Origin: a virus
Strand: one strand, 5' to 3'
Virus record (IMG/VR): IMGVR_UViG_3300050139_000051
Coordinates: 1-26,509 of that record
DNA length: 26,509 nt
Under the pieces are notes generated by a model that was not told the origin of the DNA, did no database searches, and saw only the letters and a list, made by a program, of their open reading frames with translations. The position numbers were made by a program, and so were the translations under genes. Positions 2,657 through 23,581 of this stretch are shown here, piece by piece; the first letter of the stretch is position 1; each line of letters begins with the position of its first letter.

Positions 2657-3273
2657 TGCTTACCTCTATCGGCGACGTAATGCGAAAGTGCTACGATAAT
2701 GGCTGGATTACCACAAGAGATGGTAATGTCAGCCTTCGCCGTGAGGATAGTTCATACATCTATGTAACCCCTAGTGGAGTTAGAAAGAATAAAATTGAGG
2801 TCGAGTCGATCATCAAGATGAGGATGTCAAATGGTGAACTTATTATCCCAGAAGGGCAAAAACCTTCTGGCGAAATTTACATGCACTACTTTTTACAGCG
2901 ATTTCATAATGAAACAAGAGCTGTACTCCACGTGCATCCTACTCACGTTATTGCTGCTATATATGCTGGTCTCGAACTAGACAAGATTGCAGCGGAGTTC
3001 CCTGAGATCTCTAGATATACTAGAGTAGCCCCAAATGTGCCTATCCTTCCAGCTACATCAAAAGAACTTGCAGACGCAACGGCATATGCGCTACTGAAGC
3101 AAAACGTCTCATCTAACCCCAAAGACTGCGGTATATTGGCATATGACATTGTAGGTCAAGCTAACCACGGCGTCTGTGCTGTTGGTGGAAATGTATGGGA
3201 AGCATACGAGCACTGTGAACGTTTAGACCACATATGCGAGATAGTGTTAGCATCTGGGGTTAGACCGAAGTGA
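2656..3273 (+). CDS. Class II aldolase/adducin family protein
   Basis: This 205-residue protein matches zinc-dependent class II aldolases (FucA, AraD, MtnB type). The phosphate-binding motifs GNVS (23-26) and TPSG (38-41) are present. So are the usual zinc and catalytic residues: E73 in PSGE, H92 and H94 in HVHP, and H171 in NHG. All key residues are kept, so an active enzyme is likely. The family cleaves or dehydrates phosphorylated sugars such as fuculose-1-phosphate or methylthioribulose-1-phosphate, but the substrate cannot be read from the sequence. The location is odd: it starts within the uvsX stop codon, in a recombination cluster, and not with sugar genes. It may alter host metabolism or supply a DNA/nucleotide modification precursor; both are guesses. 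Confidence 0.82.
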   Translation: MLTSIGDVMRKCYDNGWITTRDGNVSLRREDSSYIYVTPSGVRKNKIEVESIIKMRMSNGELIIPEGQKPSGEIYMHYFLQRFHNETRAVLHVHPTHVIAAIYAGLELDKIAAEFPEISRYTRVAPNVPILPATSKELADATAYALLKQNVSSNPKDCGILAYDIVGQANHGVCAVGGNVWEAYEHCERLDHICEIVLASGVRPK

Positions 3274-3839
3274 AATATTATATCTATGTGCACAGAAAAT
3301 TAGATGATAAATCTATTTTTTACGTAGGTAAAGGCACCGGAAAGCGGGTTAATTCAAAAAATAGTCGCAGCAAGTGGTGGCATAATGTAGTTAATAAACA
3401 TGGTTTTTATTATGAAATTGTTCAGTATTTTAATAATGAACAATCAGCTTATATTGGTGAATCAGCTTTGATTGATAATTTAATTTCTAAGGGGATTAAG
3501 TTAATAAACTTAAAAAGTGGTGGACTTGGTGGGATTGGTTTTAGACACACAGAGGAGTCTAAAAGAAAAATTGCAAACCACAATAAAGGTAAAAAGTTTT
3601 CTAATAGTAGAAAGAGCAATATCTCAAAGTCTTTAATAGGTAATAATTTTGCGCGTAAACGAAAATCTAAGTTCCCTTCTAATAATCGTAAAGCTGTTCT
3701 TTGTATAGACACTGGTAAAGTTTTTAATAGTACACACGAAGCTGCACAAACCTTAAAACTAAATTACTCTAATATTGCCTCTGTTTGTAGAGGTGAAAGA
3801 TCTCGCTGTGGCGGGTATACATTTCAGTATGTCAAATAG
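3270..3839 (+). CDS. GIY-YIG homing endonuclease with NUMOD/IENR-type DNA-binding repeats
   Basis: This 189-residue protein begins with a GIY-YIG variant: YIYVH at 4-8 and FYVG at 17-20, followed by GKGTGKR with catalytic R26, and E64 in the metal-binding helix. A linker of the NUMOD3 type follows (GFRHTEESKRKIA, 90-102, then KGKKFS). The C-terminal part (about 142-188) resembles the IENR1/NUMOD1 helix-turn-helix repeat (KVFNSTHEAA, IASVCRGE, GGYTFQYV). This layout is that of I-TevI/I-BmoI-like enzymes that cut at intron or gene-junction sites. The GTG start lies in the aldolase stop (4-nt overlap). The gene is very A+T-rich beside its neighbours, a sign of separate origin. It stands alone; I see no intron around it. 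Confidence 0.87.
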   Translation: MKYYIYVHRKLDDKSIFYVGKGTGKRVNSKNSRSKWWHNVVNKHGFYYEIVQYFNNEQSAYIGESALIDNLISKGIKLINLKSGGLGGIGFRHTEESKRKIANHNKGKKFSNSRKSNISKSLIGNNFARKRKSKFPSNNRKAVLCIDTGKVFNSTHEAAQTLKLNYSNIASVCRGERSRCGGYTFQYVK

Positions 3840-5236: not shown

Positions 5237-5245
5237 TGGTATAAT
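5237..5245 (+). promoter_or_regulatory. Extended -10 promoter (TGGTATAAT)
   Basis: TGG-TATAAT lies in the 56-nt gap after the gp47-like gene, the first sizeable gap in the window. It matches an extended -10 (TGnTATAAT). A TTGACG at 5222-5227 looks like a -35 but is only 12 nt away, too close for a normal sigma-70 promoter. Transcription would start near 5252. The leader would open with a short hairpin (AGGTG 5253-5257 paired with CACCT 5263-5267) and then an AGGAG ribosome site at 5268-5272. It would drive the packaging block. Confidence 0.6.
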
Positions 5246-5277: not shown

Positions 5278-5727
5278 ATGGATAACAGAGAATTAGCTGA
5301 ATACGTAGATCAGCAGAGATGGTTGTTGAATAACGGCCTTATTTCTGACGACGTTAAGAATCAGTTGTTTTTCTGTGGTTCTATCGTCCATAAGGATGTA
5401 CAAGCAGTTGAAGTTGATATCGTTCCTGATGATCGAATAATCAAATATCTGCTTTACTTTGACAAGAAGACCCTTAATAAGGTCGATAAGTATCACCGGC
5501 TCTCCAAGTCTACAAGCCTATTCGGCATGTGGCAATTTAAACGTTTCCTTAAAAAGGAAGGAACTTTGGATTTTCGCAATATGTTGAATAAGTTCGTAAG
5601 GGACTACTGCGGACCAAAATGGTCAACAGAAGTTACTATTAAAGACTTCGATACCTACTTAGAGGAACTCGGAGCACAAGGTGAAAACCACGGCGGAAGT
5701 CAGCCACCTAATCAATTGCCTGACTAA
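5278..5727 (+). CDS. Hypothetical protein, 149 aa, first gene of packaging operon
   Basis: I do not recognise this gene. The ATG is well placed 5 nt after AGGAG and downstream of a promoter-like box. The protein is helical and charged, with a basic central stretch (KKTLNKVDKYHRL, WQFKRFLKKEG) that could bind nucleic acid. The tail is Gly/Asn/Gln/Pro-rich. There is no signal peptide or membrane segment. The last 47 nt overlap the start of the sigma/HTH-like gene in another frame, and that overlap encodes the low-complexity tail, so the tail is probably free to vary. Position suggests a regulator or packaging accessory, but no family assignment is possible. Confidence 0.65.
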   Translation: MDNRELAEYVDQQRWLLNNGLISDDVKNQLFFCGSIVHKDVQAVEVDIVPDDRIIKYLLYFDKKTLNKVDKYHRLSKSTSLFGMWQFKRFLKKEGTLDFRNMLNKFVRDYCGPKWSTEVTIKDFDTYLEELGAQGENHGGSQPPNQLPD

Positions 5728-6082
5728 TGATGATGATTTGCGGCAAGAGCTGTGGGTTTACTACCTTGACGGGAATCCCGTTGAGTCCTTTGCTAGCCAT
5801 CTAGAGAAGATGGCTGTTACGTTCGAAGACGATGCAGTTGTTAGACGATCACTATGGGAACTTCTAAAGAACCCACCCAATGCAGAATTTCAAGATTTCT
5901 TAGAGGACTTCACAGACTTTGAAAGAAGTCTGATTATAGTCCTCATGCTTGGACTCACAGTAGAGAAAATTTCCCAATATAAAGGTATCAGTCAGGTGCG
6001 TATTAGGCAAGCTATTGCTGCCATAAGGTATAATAAAGCATGGGAAGTACACTATGGCTTTAAAGAAGAATCTGACAGATGA
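5681..6082 (+). CDS. Small sigma-factor-like / helix-turn-helix protein
   Basis: This 133-residue protein starts with GTG 5681, six bases after a GGAG. Residues 17-28 (DDDLRQELWVYY) resemble the core-binding helix of sigma region 2. Residues 80-118 (FERSLIIVLMLGLTVEKISQ, then VRIRQAIAAIR) have the length and pattern of a region 4 helix-turn-helix: a conserved Gly before 'TVEKIS', and an Arg-rich second helix. The protein is shorter than an ECF sigma factor (about 170-200 aa) and the middle part is not recognisable, so it may be a reduced sigma, an anti-sigma-type partner, or simply a DNA-binding regulator. It overlaps the terminase small subunit gene by 29 nt and is probably co-translated with it. 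Confidence 0.5.
   Translation: MKTTAEVSHLINCLTNDDDLRQELWVYYLDGNPVESFASHLEKMAVTFEDDAVVRRSLWELLKNPPNAEFQDFLEDFTDFERSLIIVLMLGLTVEKISQYKGISQVRIRQAIAAIRYNKAWEVHYGFKEESDR
6027..6034 (+). promoter_or_regulatory. Possible -10 box (GGTATAAT) before terminase small subunit
   Basis: GGTATAAT lies inside the end of the preceding gene, 19 nt upstream of ATG 6054. The predicted start of transcription (about 6041) would leave a very short leader with GGGAAG as a weak ribosome site. It fits the same (G)GTATAAT pattern seen in the gaps, but being within coding sequence it could be chance. Confidence 0.3.
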
Positions 6083-10651: not shown

Positions 10652-10659
10652 TAATCTAG

Positions 10660-10665
10660 TATAAT
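10660..10665 (+). promoter_or_regulatory. -10 promoter box (TATAAT) before kinase gene
   Basis: TAGTATAAT lies in the 36-nt gap after the portal gene. The predicted transcription start is about 10672, leaving a short leader with GAGAGGG as ribosome site 6-7 nt before ATG 10688. The box overlaps the left arm of a perfect hairpin described in the next entry. No -35 is visible. Confidence 0.55.
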
Positions 10666-11495: not shown

Positions 11496-12113
11496 ATGAA
11501 GGGTTTTAGACAACCAGCAGAGACATCGAAGAAAGAACAGCTTCGCAGTCTAAAAACAGAATTAGCCAACTTACAGATGGCAGGTCGCATCTCTCAGATG
11601 ATGACTCAACAGATCATGAACAACAATAAGTCAATGTCTGAGGATCTTGGTCGTGCCCTTGGCTTGATCAATGAGCTTCAATATAAGCTTTTGGCAGTTC
11701 AGAAGGTATCTAACCTTAACATTGACGACCTAAGTAAGGTGGCTGATGAATTACGTGTCAAAGATTTTAATGAAGCTTCGGACAATGAAGACACCAAAGA
11801 AGGTTTTACCGTGGCAGAAACCGTGTCCCCAGACAGCACTGTTATTCTTTCTTCTGAAGCTCCAGATGGGAAGGGAATCTTCCGGTCACGTATCGAACTC
11901 AGTTCTTGCGGCGTGCCTGCGCTCATTACAGAGCTCGCTGGCAAAACTGTAGGTGATAAAGTCACAGTGGCACTGAACGGTGTAGATCATACAGTTCAAC
12001 TCCTTGGCGTTCGCAATCCCAAACCCGAAGATCGTCCCGTAGATGTTGTTCCTCCAGTTCTTCCGCCATTTCCGCCAACGCCTGTACCAGCACCTGAGAC
12101 TCAGCTTCAGTAA
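11496..12113 (+). CDS. Hypothetical coiled-coil protein with Pro-rich tail
   Basis: I cannot assign a family. The 205-residue protein has an N-terminal helical hairpin-like region (residues 10-75; ELANLQMAGRISQMMTQQIM), an acidic linker, a small beta-rich domain (about 118-180) and a Pro-rich tail (VPPVLPPFPPTPVPAPE). The beta domain contains LAGKTVGDKVTV, which resembles the GKKVGDEV turn of the FKBP-like domain in transcript-cleavage factors such as GreA. Coiled coil plus FKBP-like domain is the GreA layout, but the acidic residues at the coiled-coil tip are not evident, so this is only a suggestion. It lies 1 nt after the kinase gene and overlaps the HTH gene by 1 nt, suggesting shared translation. 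Confidence 0.6.
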   Translation: MKGFRQPAETSKKEQLRSLKTELANLQMAGRISQMMTQQIMNNNKSMSEDLGRALGLINELQYKLLAVQKVSNLNIDDLSKVADELRVKDFNEASDNEDTKEGFTVAETVSPDSTVILSSEAPDGKGIFRSRIELSSCGVPALITELAGKTVGDKVTVALNGVDHTVQLLGVRNPKPEDRPVDVVPPVLPPFPPTPVPAPETQLQ

Positions 12114-12514
12114 TGACTAAGCCACAGTCCAAAATGGACAACAGGTGTCCGCGACAATTAGAAGAAGTCCCGGACACTTGGTGCCCTCTGGCTGTGATGC
12201 GTTTAAAAGCCATAAGAAATGCAGGTCAAGAACTCTCGGAAGAAGAGGAAGCTAAACTTCCTGGATGTCCCTGGGCTGTTGACCATCAGCTTGCTAACTA
12301 TTGCTTCTTCAAGTACATTCTTGAATATACCGGCGATAAAGCCCCCTCTGACATGGAGATTGCTTCTCTTCTTAATGTCTCTACTGAGACTGTGAAAAAG
12401 ATAGAGAAAACAGCCCTTGGTAGAATGAGGGAAGATGCAGCATTCTCAAACATGTCCTCAAAAGATGAACCCGTTGTTAAAGACGGTTCGGATGATTATA
12501 AAGTCCATCGTTAA
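12113..12514 (+). CDS. Protein with sigma region 4-like helix-turn-helix and four cysteines
   Basis: This 133-residue protein has a C-terminal half (about 78-108) that closely follows the pattern of sigma-70 region 4.2: PSDMEIASLLNVSTETVKKI then EKTALGRMRE, compared with the usual 'EIG..LGVTRERVRQIE.KALRKLR'. The N-terminal half has four Cys (C12, C24, C52, C64) in 'CP' contexts (RCPRQ, WCPLA, GCPW, NYCF), which could bind a metal. It has no sigma region 2. It could bind the -35 region, or the RNA polymerase flap as T4 gp33 does, or act as an ordinary DNA-binding regulator. Neighbours are late head genes, so a role in late transcription is plausible. The acidic tail overlaps the next gene by 23 nt. 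Confidence 0.62.
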   Translation: MTKPQSKMDNRCPRQLEEVPDTWCPLAVMRLKAIRNAGQELSEEEEAKLPGCPWAVDHQLANYCFFKYILEYTGDKAPSDMEIASLLNVSTETVKKIEKTALGRMREDAAFSNMSSKDEPVVKDGSDDYKVHR

Positions 12515-12859: not shown

Positions 12860-14524
12860 ATGGCAAAGAAACCACTAGAGATTGACATGATCGCCGGGTC
12901 TCAACTCAGAGATACCCAAGGCGAGATGCTCTCCGTTGAGGGGGCAGACATATCCGACCTTGCTTCCGGCAAGGGGCGTTTCAATGACAATCACGGCAAG
13001 GGCTTCTTCAATTCTATAGGTAGAGTTACGTTTGCTAAGAAGATCTTTAAGTCCGAGGATTGTGAGAACGATCGTCAAACATACTACTGGGATAAGGTAA
13101 AAGCTCCTTTTATCTATGTTGCTGGTCAGCTATATGATGACGAAGATCATCCCAATGCTAAGGCCGCAGCGGCTATCTTAAGAAACATTCACAAGACAGA
13201 TTGCCCATTGCAGCTCAAAGCTTCAGTTGAGGGTGGTGTAGTTTCTCGTGGGATTTCAGATCCTTCTCTGTTAGCAAGAACAAAAATTCACTCAGTTGCC
13301 TTGACATTCACTCCTGCTAATAACAATACGCTTGTAGAGCCTATTAGCTTAGATAAATCTCAGATAGACGAAGCTGCCGATATGGCACTCATTAAATCCG
13401 TTTTACACTTGGCACAGACCAACGTCCCCTCATTCAGACATATCACTCGCGATGCGTCAGCCGGTAAGATTCAAGAGAATCTAAACAAGATAGCTGAACT
13501 ACTGAATCGTCATGGTTTGGAAGTTGAGATCATCATGCCCTCTCGCGAAGAGATCATAGATCACGCGCTAGAACATAAGATACACGACAATGTAGAGAGA
13601 ATTAATGCTCTAGTTACTCAACTGAAAGATGAAGAGCTAGCAAAGAATTGGAAGAATGCTGCTGCTGGAGCTGCAATGGTTGGTGCAATGGCTGTACCAC
13701 AAACGGCACAAGCACCAAAGCCAACTGCTAAACCTCCAGTACAAGAAGCTCAAGCAATTGATCTAGGCAACATGCCTAAGAATCACCAGGACATCTACAA
13801 TCAGATCGCAGCGAAGAATCCAATGCTCGGTGCTATAGGCTTGAAAGAGTCTGGTGGTGCAAAGAACTACCAGCATCGTACGATTGCATCTAAGGGATCT
13901 CAACATGCAGGACAGACTGCTGGCGGAATGTTCGGTATGATGCCAAATTCGGCCCAGTACGTTCTAAAGAATGATTCTGAGTTGGCTAAGAAGTATCCTA
14001 AGCTTGTCGAAGCATCTAAGGATATGAAGAAGAATCATAAGTTATTCACTGACACACTAAATCAAGATCCTCAGGCTGCGGCTGACTTCGCTGTAGCTCT
14101 ATATAATAGGAACAAGTCTAAGACCAAAAGTCCTGAGCAATTGGCCTATTCCTGGTTGAATGGTCTCAAGGGAAGCTGGAATAAAGTGAAATCTGGTGGT
14201 GATGGAGCAATAAAAGAGCATCCATACGTTAAAGAAATCATGCAGTATTATAATGCCCATAAAGCTAAGTCAAACCAGCAGGTTAAGAAAGCCCTTACTG
14301 CTGGATATGGTGGTGCTGGAGCACCAACTAGTCGAGTACAAGGCGCAGTATTGCAAACAGAGTCTTTTGGAAGCGGTATAATGGGCTTTAAGTACATAAC
14401 GTGTGACAAGTGCGGCAAAGAGCAAATCTATGCCAAACATCAAGTAAAGTGCCGAGAGTGTAACAACCCTTGGAGCCTTGATAAGTTGTATCGTTCTGTG
14501 TTCGGTTCTGAAGGTAAGAAGTAA
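12860..14524 (+). CDS. Prohead protease fused to lytic transglycosylase-like domain and zinc ribbon
   Basis: This 554-residue protein has several parts. Residues 1-165 resemble T4 gp21/SPO1-type prohead proteases: GADISDLASGKGRFNDNHG with likely catalytic H45, and LKASVEGG with likely catalytic S122. A charged helical part follows. Residues 267-285 are Ala-rich and hydrophobic, ending in QTAQA, and look like an internal signal peptide. Residues about 310-465 resemble an SLT-type lytic transglycosylase: LKESGG with candidate catalytic E330, then GGMFGMMPNSA. Residues 478-502 copy a capsid N-terminal peptide, and the tail has a CxxC-x12-CxxC zinc ribbon (C515, C518, C531, C534). The protease would cut scaffold and capsid proteins; the wall-cutting domain may travel in the head. 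Roles beyond protease are inferred. Confidence 0.8.
   Translation: MAKKPLEIDMIAGSQLRDTQGEMLSVEGADISDLASGKGRFNDNHGKGFFNSIGRVTFAKKIFKSEDCENDRQTYYWDKVKAPFIYVAGQLYDDEDHPNAKAAAAILRNIHKTDCPLQLKASVEGGVVSRGISDPSLLARTKIHSVALTFTPANNNTLVEPISLDKSQIDEAADMALIKSVLHLAQTNVPSFRHITRDASAGKIQENLNKIAELLNRHGLEVEIIMPSREEIIDHALEHKIHDNVERINALVTQLKDEELAKNWKNAAAGAAMVGAMAVPQTAQAPKPTAKPPVQEAQAIDLGNMPKNHQDIYNQIAAKNPMLGAIGLKESGGAKNYQHRTIASKGSQHAGQTAGGMFGMMPNSAQYVLKNDSELAKKYPKLVEASKDMKKNHKLFTDTLNQDPQAAADFAVALYNRNKSKTKSPEQLAYSWLNGLKGSWNKVKSGGDGAIKEHPYVKEIMQYYNAHKAKSNQQVKKALTAGYGGAGAPTSRVQGAVLQTESFGSGIMGFKYITCDKCGKEQIYAKHQVKCRECNNPWSLDKLYRSVFGSEGKK
14291..14365 (+). other. Capsid-like peptide in the protease tail (copy 1 of shared motif)
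   Basis: These codons (protease residues 478-502) encode a 25-residue peptide with about 16 identical positions to capsid residues 29-53 (15925-15999). Shared parts are TAGYGG, a PT pair, and a hydrophobic-Gln-x-Glu-Ser ending (LQTES here). The ending resembles the sites cut by T4-type prohead proteases, which cleave after Glu. It may be a self-processing or docking site. Confidence 0.65.
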
Positions 14525-20317: not shown

Positions 20318-20325
20318 GGTATAAT
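20318..20325 (+). promoter_or_regulatory. -10 promoter (GGTATAAT) before small virion-type gene
   Basis: CGGTATAAT lies in the 52-nt gap after the CYTH gene. Transcription would start near 20332, leaving a short leader with AAGGAG at 20337-20342 before ATG 20349. A weak inverted repeat (GTCCCT 20326-20331 against AGGAGAC 20338-20344, one mismatch) resembles the hairpin at 10664 but is much less convincing. It would restart the head-tail gene block. Confidence 0.58.
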
Positions 20326-20687: not shown

Positions 20688-21884
20688 ATGGAACTCAAAG
20701 GTTTCAGGGAGATCTTGCTTAAGAAGGCTGAAGGCAATACGACCCTGCAAACGCTTATAGCGTATGCCAAAGATGACATTTTAATAGATAAAGTGATTGA
20801 AGCTCTTGAGAAGATGGCTCGTCCTAATGCATCTATGGGCCGTGGTGCAAACGCTGCTGTTATGGCTTTTGCCAATCAACTGAAGAATAAAGATGTGTCT
20901 ATGATGCACGATGCACTTGGACATCACGTCTCTCATTACAAGAGCGCTTTGAAAGCTGCTCAAGATCCTGGCACTGACCCAAGCAAGATTGCAAACCACA
21001 GGAAGGTTGCAGATCAACATCTTAATAAGATAATTCCTCTTATGCACTTAGCTGGTCGCGCTGCGCCGCACTCTGGTGGGTCGTTAGCATTAGACTATGT
21101 ACCAACTGAAGGTTGGGAAACTAACTATACGCGTCTCGACAGAAATCCCATGAACGGTAAGCTGCAAGAAGGAACTAAGGGTCTTGGTCGTCGTCCGAAG
21201 TCTACAAAACGGAATCCATTTCATGAATCAGATCCACAGCATGCTGATTTAAACGCCAAGGGGCACAATCCTTATGGCGTTCCTGATTACAGATATCTGG
21301 AGATGGCTCCTCATCCTGGACATCCAGATTATAAATCCACCGCTCACGAAGGTGGATATCCCTTTGAAGAGACACAACTTGGTAACCCTGCTAAGGTCGA
21401 TGCTAAAGAAGCACATATCCACGATCGCGACGTAGAGTCTTCAGATAAGTATACTCCGCACCCATTTGATTCTCATCCTGTTCACGCGTTGGCTGATGTG
21501 AAGCAAGGTAGTTTTATTGATGAGAATGACCCTAGGCTTTCAAAGTTTGCTAAAGACATGGAGCAATGGCATGATTCGGACCATAGTAAAAAGTGGACAG
21601 AAAAACTTAAAGAAGACTACGCTAAAGACCCAGAAGCCTTTAAAGCCCGCGGGAAGACAAAACCAAGTCATGCCTACGAAGGGATCAACCTGCAAGAACC
21701 GGAACATCACGTTAAGCACCACACAGAGACTTATGGTAAGCCTGAGAAGATCGGAGCAAAAAAGGAAACTACTAAGAAAGAAGCGCCATCTAGCGCTGGC
21801 AAAACTGCAGATATCTCTGAGGCTGATCTAGCTAAGATGCCTCCTGCTATTCGTGCTATATATATGAAGTCGAGGAATAAGTAA
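20688..21884 (+). CDS. Hypothetical virion-type protein with His/Pro-rich middle, 398 aa
   Basis: I do not recognise a domain. The protein has a helical N-terminal part (1-130), then a long His/Asp/Pro/Gly-rich region with few hydrophobic residues (e.g. HPGHPDYKSTAHEGGYPFEE), probably disordered or metal-binding. The C terminus (ISEADLAKMPPAIRAIYMKS, 376-395) closely matches a segment in the next protein (residues 158-177: ISEKDLAAMPKAVRDIYAKA). The shared peptide may be a docking site for the same partner, such as capsid or portal. A good AAGGAG site precedes the ATG. The stop overlaps the next start by 1 nt. A packaged inner-head protein is one reading. Confidence 0.65.
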   Translation: MELKGFREILLKKAEGNTTLQTLIAYAKDDILIDKVIEALEKMARPNASMGRGANAAVMAFANQLKNKDVSMMHDALGHHVSHYKSALKAAQDPGTDPSKIANHRKVADQHLNKIIPLMHLAGRAAPHSGGSLALDYVPTEGWETNYTRLDRNPMNGKLQEGTKGLGRRPKSTKRNPFHESDPQHADLNAKGHNPYGVPDYRYLEMAPHPGHPDYKSTAHEGGYPFEETQLGNPAKVDAKEAHIHDRDVESSDKYTPHPFDSHPVHALADVKQGSFIDENDPRLSKFAKDMEQWHDSDHSKKWTEKLKEDYAKDPEAFKARGKTKPSHAYEGINLQEPEHHVKHHTETYGKPEKIGAKKETTKKEAPSSAGKTADISEADLAKMPPAIRAIYMKSRNK

Positions 21885-23581
21885 TGCCAGCCTTCATTAA
21901 AACTCCTGGAGATGAAAAACGTTGGTCAAAGGCTAAAGAAGCAGCTGATAAGTCTCATTCAGCATCTGAAGGCGATAGCTATTGGGCCGTTGTGAACTCT
22001 ATATACCAGAAGATGACTAAAACTATTGATGTGGCATTAGAGTTGGGAGATGAAGAAGCTCTAGCTAAAGCCATTGAAATGCTCGATAAGGCTCGCGATT
22101 GGACCAATGATCCAGATGACGACGATAATGAGCTTGGAGAAGGGTTCAGTGAGATTGACCCAGACGACGAGGAGTCTGCTGGCGATGATTGGCTTAAAGA
22201 AAACGATCCCAAACAAGGAGATGAGTATGAAGAATATGATGATGGCGAAGATGAGGATGCTCATCGAAAGAACATCGAAGATGATGAAAGCGCTGAAGAA
22301 GCAGCTCCAGAAGCTGCAGAAGCAGGCAGTGAAGAGTCAGCGGATGTGCCAAAAATCTCTGAAAAAGACCTGGCAGCAATGCCTAAAGCAGTTAGGGACA
22401 TTTATGCCAAAGCACAATCCAAAGGTGGTAAACCTCAAGAAGTGGAAGAAGCACAACCGCAAGGACAAGTAAGATCTAGTCGCTTCAGACAACCAACTCC
22501 TGAAGAGATTACATCTATGCGTGGATACACTCGTCCTTGGGAACAACGTGCTCGCGAGACAGTTAAGCTTAATGCTGATCCTTCTAAGAATCCAGTATTG
22601 CACCATCAGGGTCAAGTTATTGAGGCTCGTGAGAAAGCTCACGGCGGTCGCAAGGCTGAGTACCAGAAGCTTATAAACTCTGATGACTACAAGAACGCAG
22701 ATCCTATGCAACAGATGGAGATGGATGATGGTTTTGAGCGTGATTGGAAGAAGAATAACCCTGAGCATATGAAGAATGCTTTTGCTGAGCATCATGCTGC
22801 AGATAAGAAAGGCAAGCTAGCTGGTGCACAGCACGCAGCAGCTAAAGATGCTGATATTCGCAATATTATCATGGGTGGATCTAATTCTGGAGAGGGAATG
22901 TCTACTGAGGCTGCTCTGCAGAACGTAGGCGGTGTTAAAGGTGAAGAAGGTACTACTGGGCGCATTATGCAAGACCCAGCTGCTTCTTTTGCTCATAGCA
23001 ACCCTGACTTCATCAAGCAATACGCTCAGGACTATGAAAAGAAAGCCAAAAAGGTTGGCGATATTGACGATATGCAGAACTATGACGACGCCTCTAGAAA
23101 GGATGTTGCCCGTATTTTGGGAGCAGCTCCTGCAAAAGACCCTCGCGTAGAGCAGTTCTTTGCTCATTATCATCCTCTTATTGGCATGAGTGCTTCTAAG
23201 GTTATGAAGAAGCTTGGTCTAGACTCTAAGTCAGGCGACATGGATATGAGCATGCTGCACGAAGCAGGAATGCATGGTTTGATGCAGTCTATCAATGATT
23301 ATGACCATAATCACCCCAGCAAAGCATCATTCGCAACACATGCTGGCAACAAGATACGCGGTCTTATGCAGACTGCACTTAGAGATCAAGATAAGATCCC
23401 CACTGAGATGCGTAGAGCACAGAAGAGCTATATGAAGACTAAAGCGCCTGCGGTCAAGACAATCTCAAGTAAAGAGCTGTTAGGATCTCATACTAGAGCA
23501 CCAGAGATAAAAGAGAGACTAGGACATGCTGATGCTCAGAGAGCCAGGTATGTTCCTAAGAAGCCGGGAGGGCAAGAATAA
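21884..23581 (+). CDS. Virion-type protein with sigma factor region 2-like domain
   Basis: This 565-residue protein has three parts. Residues 1-44 (MPAFIKTPGDEKRWSKAKEA, then YWAVVNSIYQKM) match an N-terminal motif I recall from phage structural proteins. Residues 70-160 are very acidic and disordered, with the ISEKDLAAMP peptide shared with the previous protein. Residues about 421-515 resemble sigma-70 region 2: HYHPLIGMSASKVMKKLG, then SMLHEAGMHGLMQSINDYD like 'DLiQeG.iGLm.Ai..fD', then FATHAGNKIRGLMQTALRDQ like 'FstYA...IRg.i...lRd'. The paired Trp of sigma-70 is replaced by N489-K490, as in alternative sigma types. No region 4 is present. It may be a packaged or late sigma factor, or a DNA-binding structural protein using this fold. 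Confidence 0.68.
   Translation: MPAFIKTPGDEKRWSKAKEAADKSHSASEGDSYWAVVNSIYQKMTKTIDVALELGDEEALAKAIEMLDKARDWTNDPDDDDNELGEGFSEIDPDDEESAGDDWLKENDPKQGDEYEEYDDGEDEDAHRKNIEDDESAEEAAPEAAEAGSEESADVPKISEKDLAAMPKAVRDIYAKAQSKGGKPQEVEEAQPQGQVRSSRFRQPTPEEITSMRGYTRPWEQRARETVKLNADPSKNPVLHHQGQVIEAREKAHGGRKAEYQKLINSDDYKNADPMQQMEMDDGFERDWKKNNPEHMKNAFAEHHAADKKGKLAGAQHAAAKDADIRNIIMGGSNSGEGMSTEAALQNVGGVKGEEGTTGRIMQDPAASFAHSNPDFIKQYAQDYEKKAKKVGDIDDMQNYDDASRKDVARILGAAPAKDPRVEQFFAHYHPLIGMSASKVMKKLGLDSKSGDMDMSMLHEAGMHGLMQSINDYDHNHPSKASFATHAGNKIRGLMQTALRDQDKIPTEMRRAQKSYMKTKAPAVKTISSKELLGSHTRAPEIKERLGHADAQRARYVPKKPGGQE

Follow-up and report, generated by a model that had tools for sequence, protein, structure and literature searches.

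A FliA-like sigma region 2 domain on a phage head-module protein, accompanied by a separate region 4-like protein and -10-only GTATAAT promoter-like sites

The division of a sigma factor between two polypeptides has a precedent in SigO-RsoA of Bacillus subtilis, although these are cellular, stand-alone proteins, whereas the domain considered here lies on a phage head-module protein. Phage SPO1 has its late sigma genes, 33 and 34, outside the head module, within which no sigma region 2 protein is seen. Phage T4 uses a split sigma, gp55 plus gp33, on late promoters that lack a -35 element (PMC2988020), and region 4-only mini sigmas are known in jumbo phages along with gp33 (PMC7824862). Other phages encode transcription proteins as components of the virion, as is the case for the virion RNA polymerases of N4 and phiKZ/AR9 (PMC5312081). 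In addition, a sigma factor has been detected in particle preparations of a staphylococcal Twort-like phage, but it was regarded as probably non-structural (PMC5618024). In the open-access papers searched, no phage head protein is described as bearing a sigma domain. To our knowledge, every transcription protein known to be delivered by virions is either a whole polymerase or a modifying enzyme. If a phage captured the host polymerase through a sigma domain within a head-module protein, the strategy would be new, and it would connect head assembly with late or first transcription.

The stretch of DNA analysed here, hereafter the window, comes from an uncultivated bacterial virus and comprises positions 1 to 26,509 of IMG/VR record IMGVR_UViG_3300050139_000051 (26,509 nt, or 26.5 kb). 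Its genes encode, in order, a UvsX-like recombinase, an SbcD-like nuclease, terminase, portal, and head protease, followed by a scaffold-like protein, the major capsid protein, thymidylate kinase, an exonuclease, the 565-residue protein that is the subject of this study, and a phrog_772 connector-like protein. Relatives of 147-177 kb have the same gene order, and the synteny of the gene of interest, set between the capsid and connector genes, is conserved in them. A sequence-only reading of the window had placed this gene among head-tail genes, and portal, protease, capsid, and connector genes do indeed surround it; its coordinates are also as that reading had given them. The arrangement is like that of the SPO1-like phages (Herelleviridae), in which the portal-protease-scaffold-capsid-connector order is similar. 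The window capsid protein is likewise closest to those of SPO1-like phages (~32% identity, to SPO1 gp6.1), with more remote matches in the Bacteroides DAC and Myxococcus Mx1 phages. Other features of the window are a homing-endonuclease-like ORF (3270-3839) inserted in its early part and a lytic-transglycosylase-like segment that is also carried by the head maturation protease ORF (12860-14524). Near the C terminus of this protease ORF, the peptide KALTAGYGGAGAPTSRVQGAVLQTES is similar to the N-terminal sequence of the major capsid protein, KAITAGYGGSGKPTDLVYGGVIQAES, a likeness that could possibly reflect a cleavage or assembly signal.

Relatives of the 565-residue protein were collected by scanning IMG/VR and GTDB contigs, and a full-length alignment of 13 sequences was made, consisting of the window protein and 12 homologs from other viral contigs that are 46-80% identical. 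Because these homologs align and the reading frame and synteny are preserved in the near-complete relatives examined, the ORF is a real gene. A tblastn search with the protein against annotated phages gave no homolog, and nothing significant was obtained when the full window protein was searched against Pfam and PHROGs. The family, none of whose members is annotated, thus far spans more than 12 distinct IMG/VR contigs, and several of these are genomes of 147-177 kb. The parts of the protein and the other features discussed below are collected in Table 1.

Table 1. Coordinates of the head-module protein, its parts, the region 4-like proteins, and the promoter-like sites in the window
Feature	Position	Strand	Basis or remark
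Head-module protein with C-terminal sigma region 2 domain, 565 aa	21884..23581	+	ATG start, TAA stop
N-terminal KTP-type module, aa 1-46, MPAFIKTPGDEKRW...	21884..22021	+	Alignment, occurrence on unrelated proteins
Acidic low-complexity linker, aa 47-196	22022..22471	+	
Phage-specific conserved middle domain, aa 197-392, MRxYTRPWEQRARE...QMEMD	22472..23059	+	
Sigma region 2-like domain (2.1-2.4), aa 421-507	23144..23404	+	
Variable C-terminal tail, aa 508-565	23405..23578	+	
Sigma region 4-like mini-protein, 133 aa	12113..12514	+	Pfam Sigma70_r4 25.5 bits, cut-off 24.1
Second, weaker region 4-like helix-turn-helix protein, 133 aa	5681..6082	+	Profile match
GTATAAT upstream of ORF 5278	5239..5245	+	TATAAT conserved in 6/6 genomes, GTATAAT in 5
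Leaderless-type GTATAAT, exactly 6 nt ahead of the portal start codon	8620..8626	+	
GTATAAT upstream of ORF 10688	10659..10665	+	Conserved in 6/6 genomes
GTATAAT 7 nt before prohead protease start codon	12846..12852	+	
GTATAAT upstream of ORF 20349	20319..20325	+	Same-type site before G003 homolog

The KTP-type N terminus, the acidic low-complexity segment, and a peptide shared with the neighbouring ORF had all been pointed out previously, and all are present. The shared peptide, within aa 158-178 of the 565-residue protein, reads ISEKDLAAMPKAVRDIY there (aa 158-174) and ISEADLAKMPPAIRAIY close to the C terminus of the neighbour. Since only the two closest relatives retain this peptide, and since the KTP module is absent from 4 of the 13 homologs, in which the sigma domain is nevertheless retained, neither is essential. 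The N-terminal module, with the pattern MPAFIKTxxDExxW, is also found on otherwise unrelated proteins (L008-L012), and three such proteins, on three other contigs, adjoin portal, terminase, scaffold, or capsid genes, which indirectly suggests that the module may be a head-linked tag. The middle domain has no relative in the PDB, and it co-occurs with the sigma domain in every relative that spans both. Among the 13 homologs, mean pairwise identity reaches 72% in the sigma segment, where 35 of 87 positions are invariant; it is 60% for the middle domain and 41-54% in the other segments, so that conservation is highest in the sigma segment. This conservation, together with the co-occurrence with the middle domain, argues against a view of the sigma domain as a decaying remnant. 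In the C-terminal tail, a weak echo of sigma region 3.0/3.1 (QDKIPTEMRR; PEIKERLG) is seen in some members and is eroded in others.

A sigma region 2 pattern had been proposed at residues ~421-515, and profile searches agree. When the full window protein was scanned against NCBIfam, it matched FliA (E 8e-11) and, over residues 423-520, TIGR02479 FliA_WhiG (E 1.1e-10), and the FliA_WhiG model was matched by all five members of a first domain alignment. A phmmer search of the PDB with the window protein gave FliA at E 1.4e-4 (residues 413-514), while the 13-member profile matched sigma factors at E 1.8e-7 to 5e-7. The assignment of residues 423-520 as a genuine FliA/WhiG-type sigma region 2 domain is thus strongly supported by homology. 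Regions 2.1-2.4 align with FliA/WhiG (sigma-28) over ~90 residues, the FxTxAxxxIRG motif included. Furthermore, FliA and the phage family both lack the tryptophan pair of sigma-70, which stands where the window protein has Asn-Lys. Conservation extends to likely surface positions of regions 2.2 and 2.3, namely E460, Q468, H486, N489, K490, and R492.

However, the phage family departs from FliA/WhiG in several ways. In the alignment with FliA, the conserved aromatic residue of region 2.3 (a Tyr position) is His, and an invariant His in region 2.2 occurs where FliA has a hydrophobic residue (Ile); these substitutions may alter DNA reading or core binding. There are phage-specific insertions before region 2.2 and between 2.2 and 2.3, the extra loops being GLDxKxxDxD and HPSK. 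In addition, the window protein bears a 400-aa phage-specific N-terminal part, and it is without regions 3 and 4: no more than a trace of region 3 survives, and no region 4 match was found within the protein, which ends ~45 residues after the aa 423-520 stretch. AlphaFold, given a shallow alignment, placed helices where region 2 would have them, at aa 431-443, 455-472, and 483-503 with block-mean pLDDT values of ~70-88, but overall confidence was low (mean pLDDT 56 for the full-length model and 53 for a poor domain-only model). The best PDB match of the model in Foldseek, to a sigma-A chain, was not significant (E 0.39). It should be noted that the predicted structure is too weak to be used, and no conclusion is built on it.

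Sequences resembling region 4 are found elsewhere in the window. The mini-protein at 12113-12514, which has several cysteines, has a homolog (57-68% identity) in 10 of the 11 records that hold the sigma region 2 protein, and the sole record without one is a 59.8-kb fragment. This pairing of genes is newly found, and from its profile match and co-occurrence the mini-protein is a candidate region 4 partner of the sigma region 2 protein. The protein at 5681-6082 lies just upstream of the terminase genes and is conserved in relatives. In five large genomes, the FliA_WhiG model matched only the homolog of the 565-residue ORF. A model of the ECF superfamily gave sub-threshold partial matches in two of five large relatives; in G004, these fell on region 2 of the sigma region 2 ORF and on region 4 of two small ORFs, which are homologs of the window 12113-12514 protein and, by position and profile stretch, of the 5681-6082 protein. 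Neither a complete sigma factor nor a multisubunit polymerase gene (RNA polymerase beta-subunit domain) was found in profile searches of the five large genomes. Since no complete sigma factor was found there, the family would fill a gap in the transcription control of these large genomes.

The promoter-like sites provide a further line of evidence. In noncoding DNA of the late strand, within 100 bp upstream of genes, GTATAAT occurs 5, 13, 13, 10, and 11 times versus 0.14-0.72 expected, an enrichment of ~17-36 fold (p 4e-7 to 1e-14). This figure, like those given below for the early strand and for the spacing, is based on simple ORF calling and on strands called late or early solely from the position of the structural genes. 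The early strand of four large genomes has 4-6 occurrences versus 0.3-0.8 expected, a lesser enrichment than that of the late strand. Among 55 late sites, no -35 element or other conserved position stands out from -45 to +25. The distance from GTATAAT to the start codon is exactly 6 nt in 30 of 67 sites having an open start at spacings of 3-25 (p 3e-23), while each of the other spacings is represented by 0-7 sites. With a spacing of 6 nt, transcription is predicted to begin at the A of the ATG, which would yield a leaderless messenger. Sites of this type precede many late-strand genes in the window and in relatives G001-G004, and GGTATAAT precedes the portal gene in the window, G001, G002, and G005. 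A conserved -10-only GTATAAT promoter on late-strand genes, often leaderless, is also newly found. Two-hexamer sigma-70 sites are present in the window at chance level (31 found versus 32 expected).

The comparison with T4 gp55, made in the sequence-only reading, has gained support from these findings: region 4 is absent from the protein, a separate region 4-like protein is co-conserved, and the late-strand promoters consist of a single element. As with gp55/gp33, region 2 occurs without region 4 in one protein, and there is a separate candidate for a region 4-like partner. T4 late promoters also lack a -35 element (PMC2988020), as do the GTATAAT sites. However, the T4 sites differ from those of the window, which read GTATAAT and are often leaderless. 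Unlike gp55, the window protein has a FliA-like region 2 (its best profile matches are FliA/WhiG) carried on a 565-aa head-module protein, and unlike gp33, the partner candidate is a clear Sigma70_r4 match.

Taken together, these results have led us to a working hypothesis, which we hold tentatively and to which we give somewhat less than an even chance: the protein would be the sigma region 2 half of a split, gp55/gp33-like late specificity factor for the host polymerase, situated on a head-module protein. A late role with the host polymerase is favored because the division into region 2 and region 4-like proteins, the -35-less late promoters, and the finding of no phage polymerase match the late pattern of T4. 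In this model, the C-terminal domain would bind the beta' clamp helices of host RNA polymerase and read GTATAAT as a -10-type element at phage late promoters, while the 12113-12514 protein would supply the flap-binding half in trans, so that the two together would constitute a split sigma like gp55 plus gp33. The N-terminal 400 residues tie the domain to the head module, so that virions may in addition package the factor and take it into the next cell. Counting against this hypothesis, the early strand also has some GTATAAT sites, regions 2.2 and 2.3 bear the His substitutions described above, and the late sigmas of phages known to us are all much smaller than 565 aa. The reader of GTATAAT could also be the host's own sigma.

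Several of these observations can be read differently. The protein might be an internal head protein that enters the cell with the DNA, its sigma domain then recruiting host RNA polymerase to the incoming genome for the first transcription; injection of a virion protein with a sigma domain had been raised in the sequence-only reading. The position of its gene between the capsid and connector genes, with conserved synteny, and the presence of the KTP module on unrelated proteins that adjoin portal, terminase, scaffold, and capsid genes are consistent with location in the virion and injection, and its acidic, charged composition appears to be like that of internal head proteins. It would then resemble the N4 and phiKZ/AR9 proteins in being a transcription protein encoded, here only possibly, as a virion component, but those are complete polymerases, whereas the window protein has a sigma domain only and its packaging is putative. 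We consider delivery by the virion unlikely, given that the KTP module is gone in homologs that keep the sigma domain and that GTATAAT is densest on the late, not the early, strand. Furthermore, since the sigma in the staphylococcal phage preparations was taken to be probably non-structural (PMC5618024), packaging is not to be assumed. Still more doubtful is a combined version, in which a packaged head protein and the region 4-like protein would form a split sigma that is injected with the genome, acts late as well, and targets leaderless, -10-only GTATAAT promoters.

It has also been considered that the sigma fold was exapted and no longer selects promoters. The domain would instead bind DNA or polymerase as part of the head, anchoring packaged DNA, for example, or keeping RNA polymerase off it. 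Fusion to a large head-module protein, the loss of regions 3 and 4, the unusual invariant histidines, and the small insertions relative to FliA would all fit such a role. Nevertheless, we regard it as unlikely: positions in regions 2.2 and 2.3 are invariant across divergent homologs, a region 4-like protein is co-conserved, the promoters are -10-only, and the distant relative L093 is still more sigma-like. As for the idea that the resemblance to sigma region 2 is due to chance or composition, the window protein does score below the Pfam Sigma70_r2 cut-off (11.6 versus 24 bits), which only the divergent L093 passes (27.3 bits, E 3.2e-6). However, the window protein matches curated FliA models at E ~1e-10, every family member tested does so at 8e-8 or better, and all significant PDB profile matches are sigma factors. 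Chance similarity is refuted by these profile results, and we assign it almost no probability.

If the domain does act on transcription, it may give the virus a means of steering the host RNA polymerase, and the leaderless GTATAAT promoters provide a direct test system. One relative was binned in a Cytophagales MAG, which had prompted the argument that TATAAT would be foreign to a Bacteroidota host. This argument was dropped given the use of Shine-Dalgarno-like sequences, which occur at 20-35% of starts in phages of this family versus 0 of 23 in a Bacteroides phage and which suggest that the host is not a typical Bacteroidota. In addition, tRNAs with a CTA anticodon (called as Pyl by ARAGORN) are present in relatives (L044:13386-13460 and L050:6344-6499, both on the - strand). 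Recoding of TAG, which these tRNAs had brought to mind, was rejected for the window, in which 5 of 31 ORFs end in TAG; in the relatives, the tRNAs represent possible amber suppression, although TAG serves as a stop in the window.
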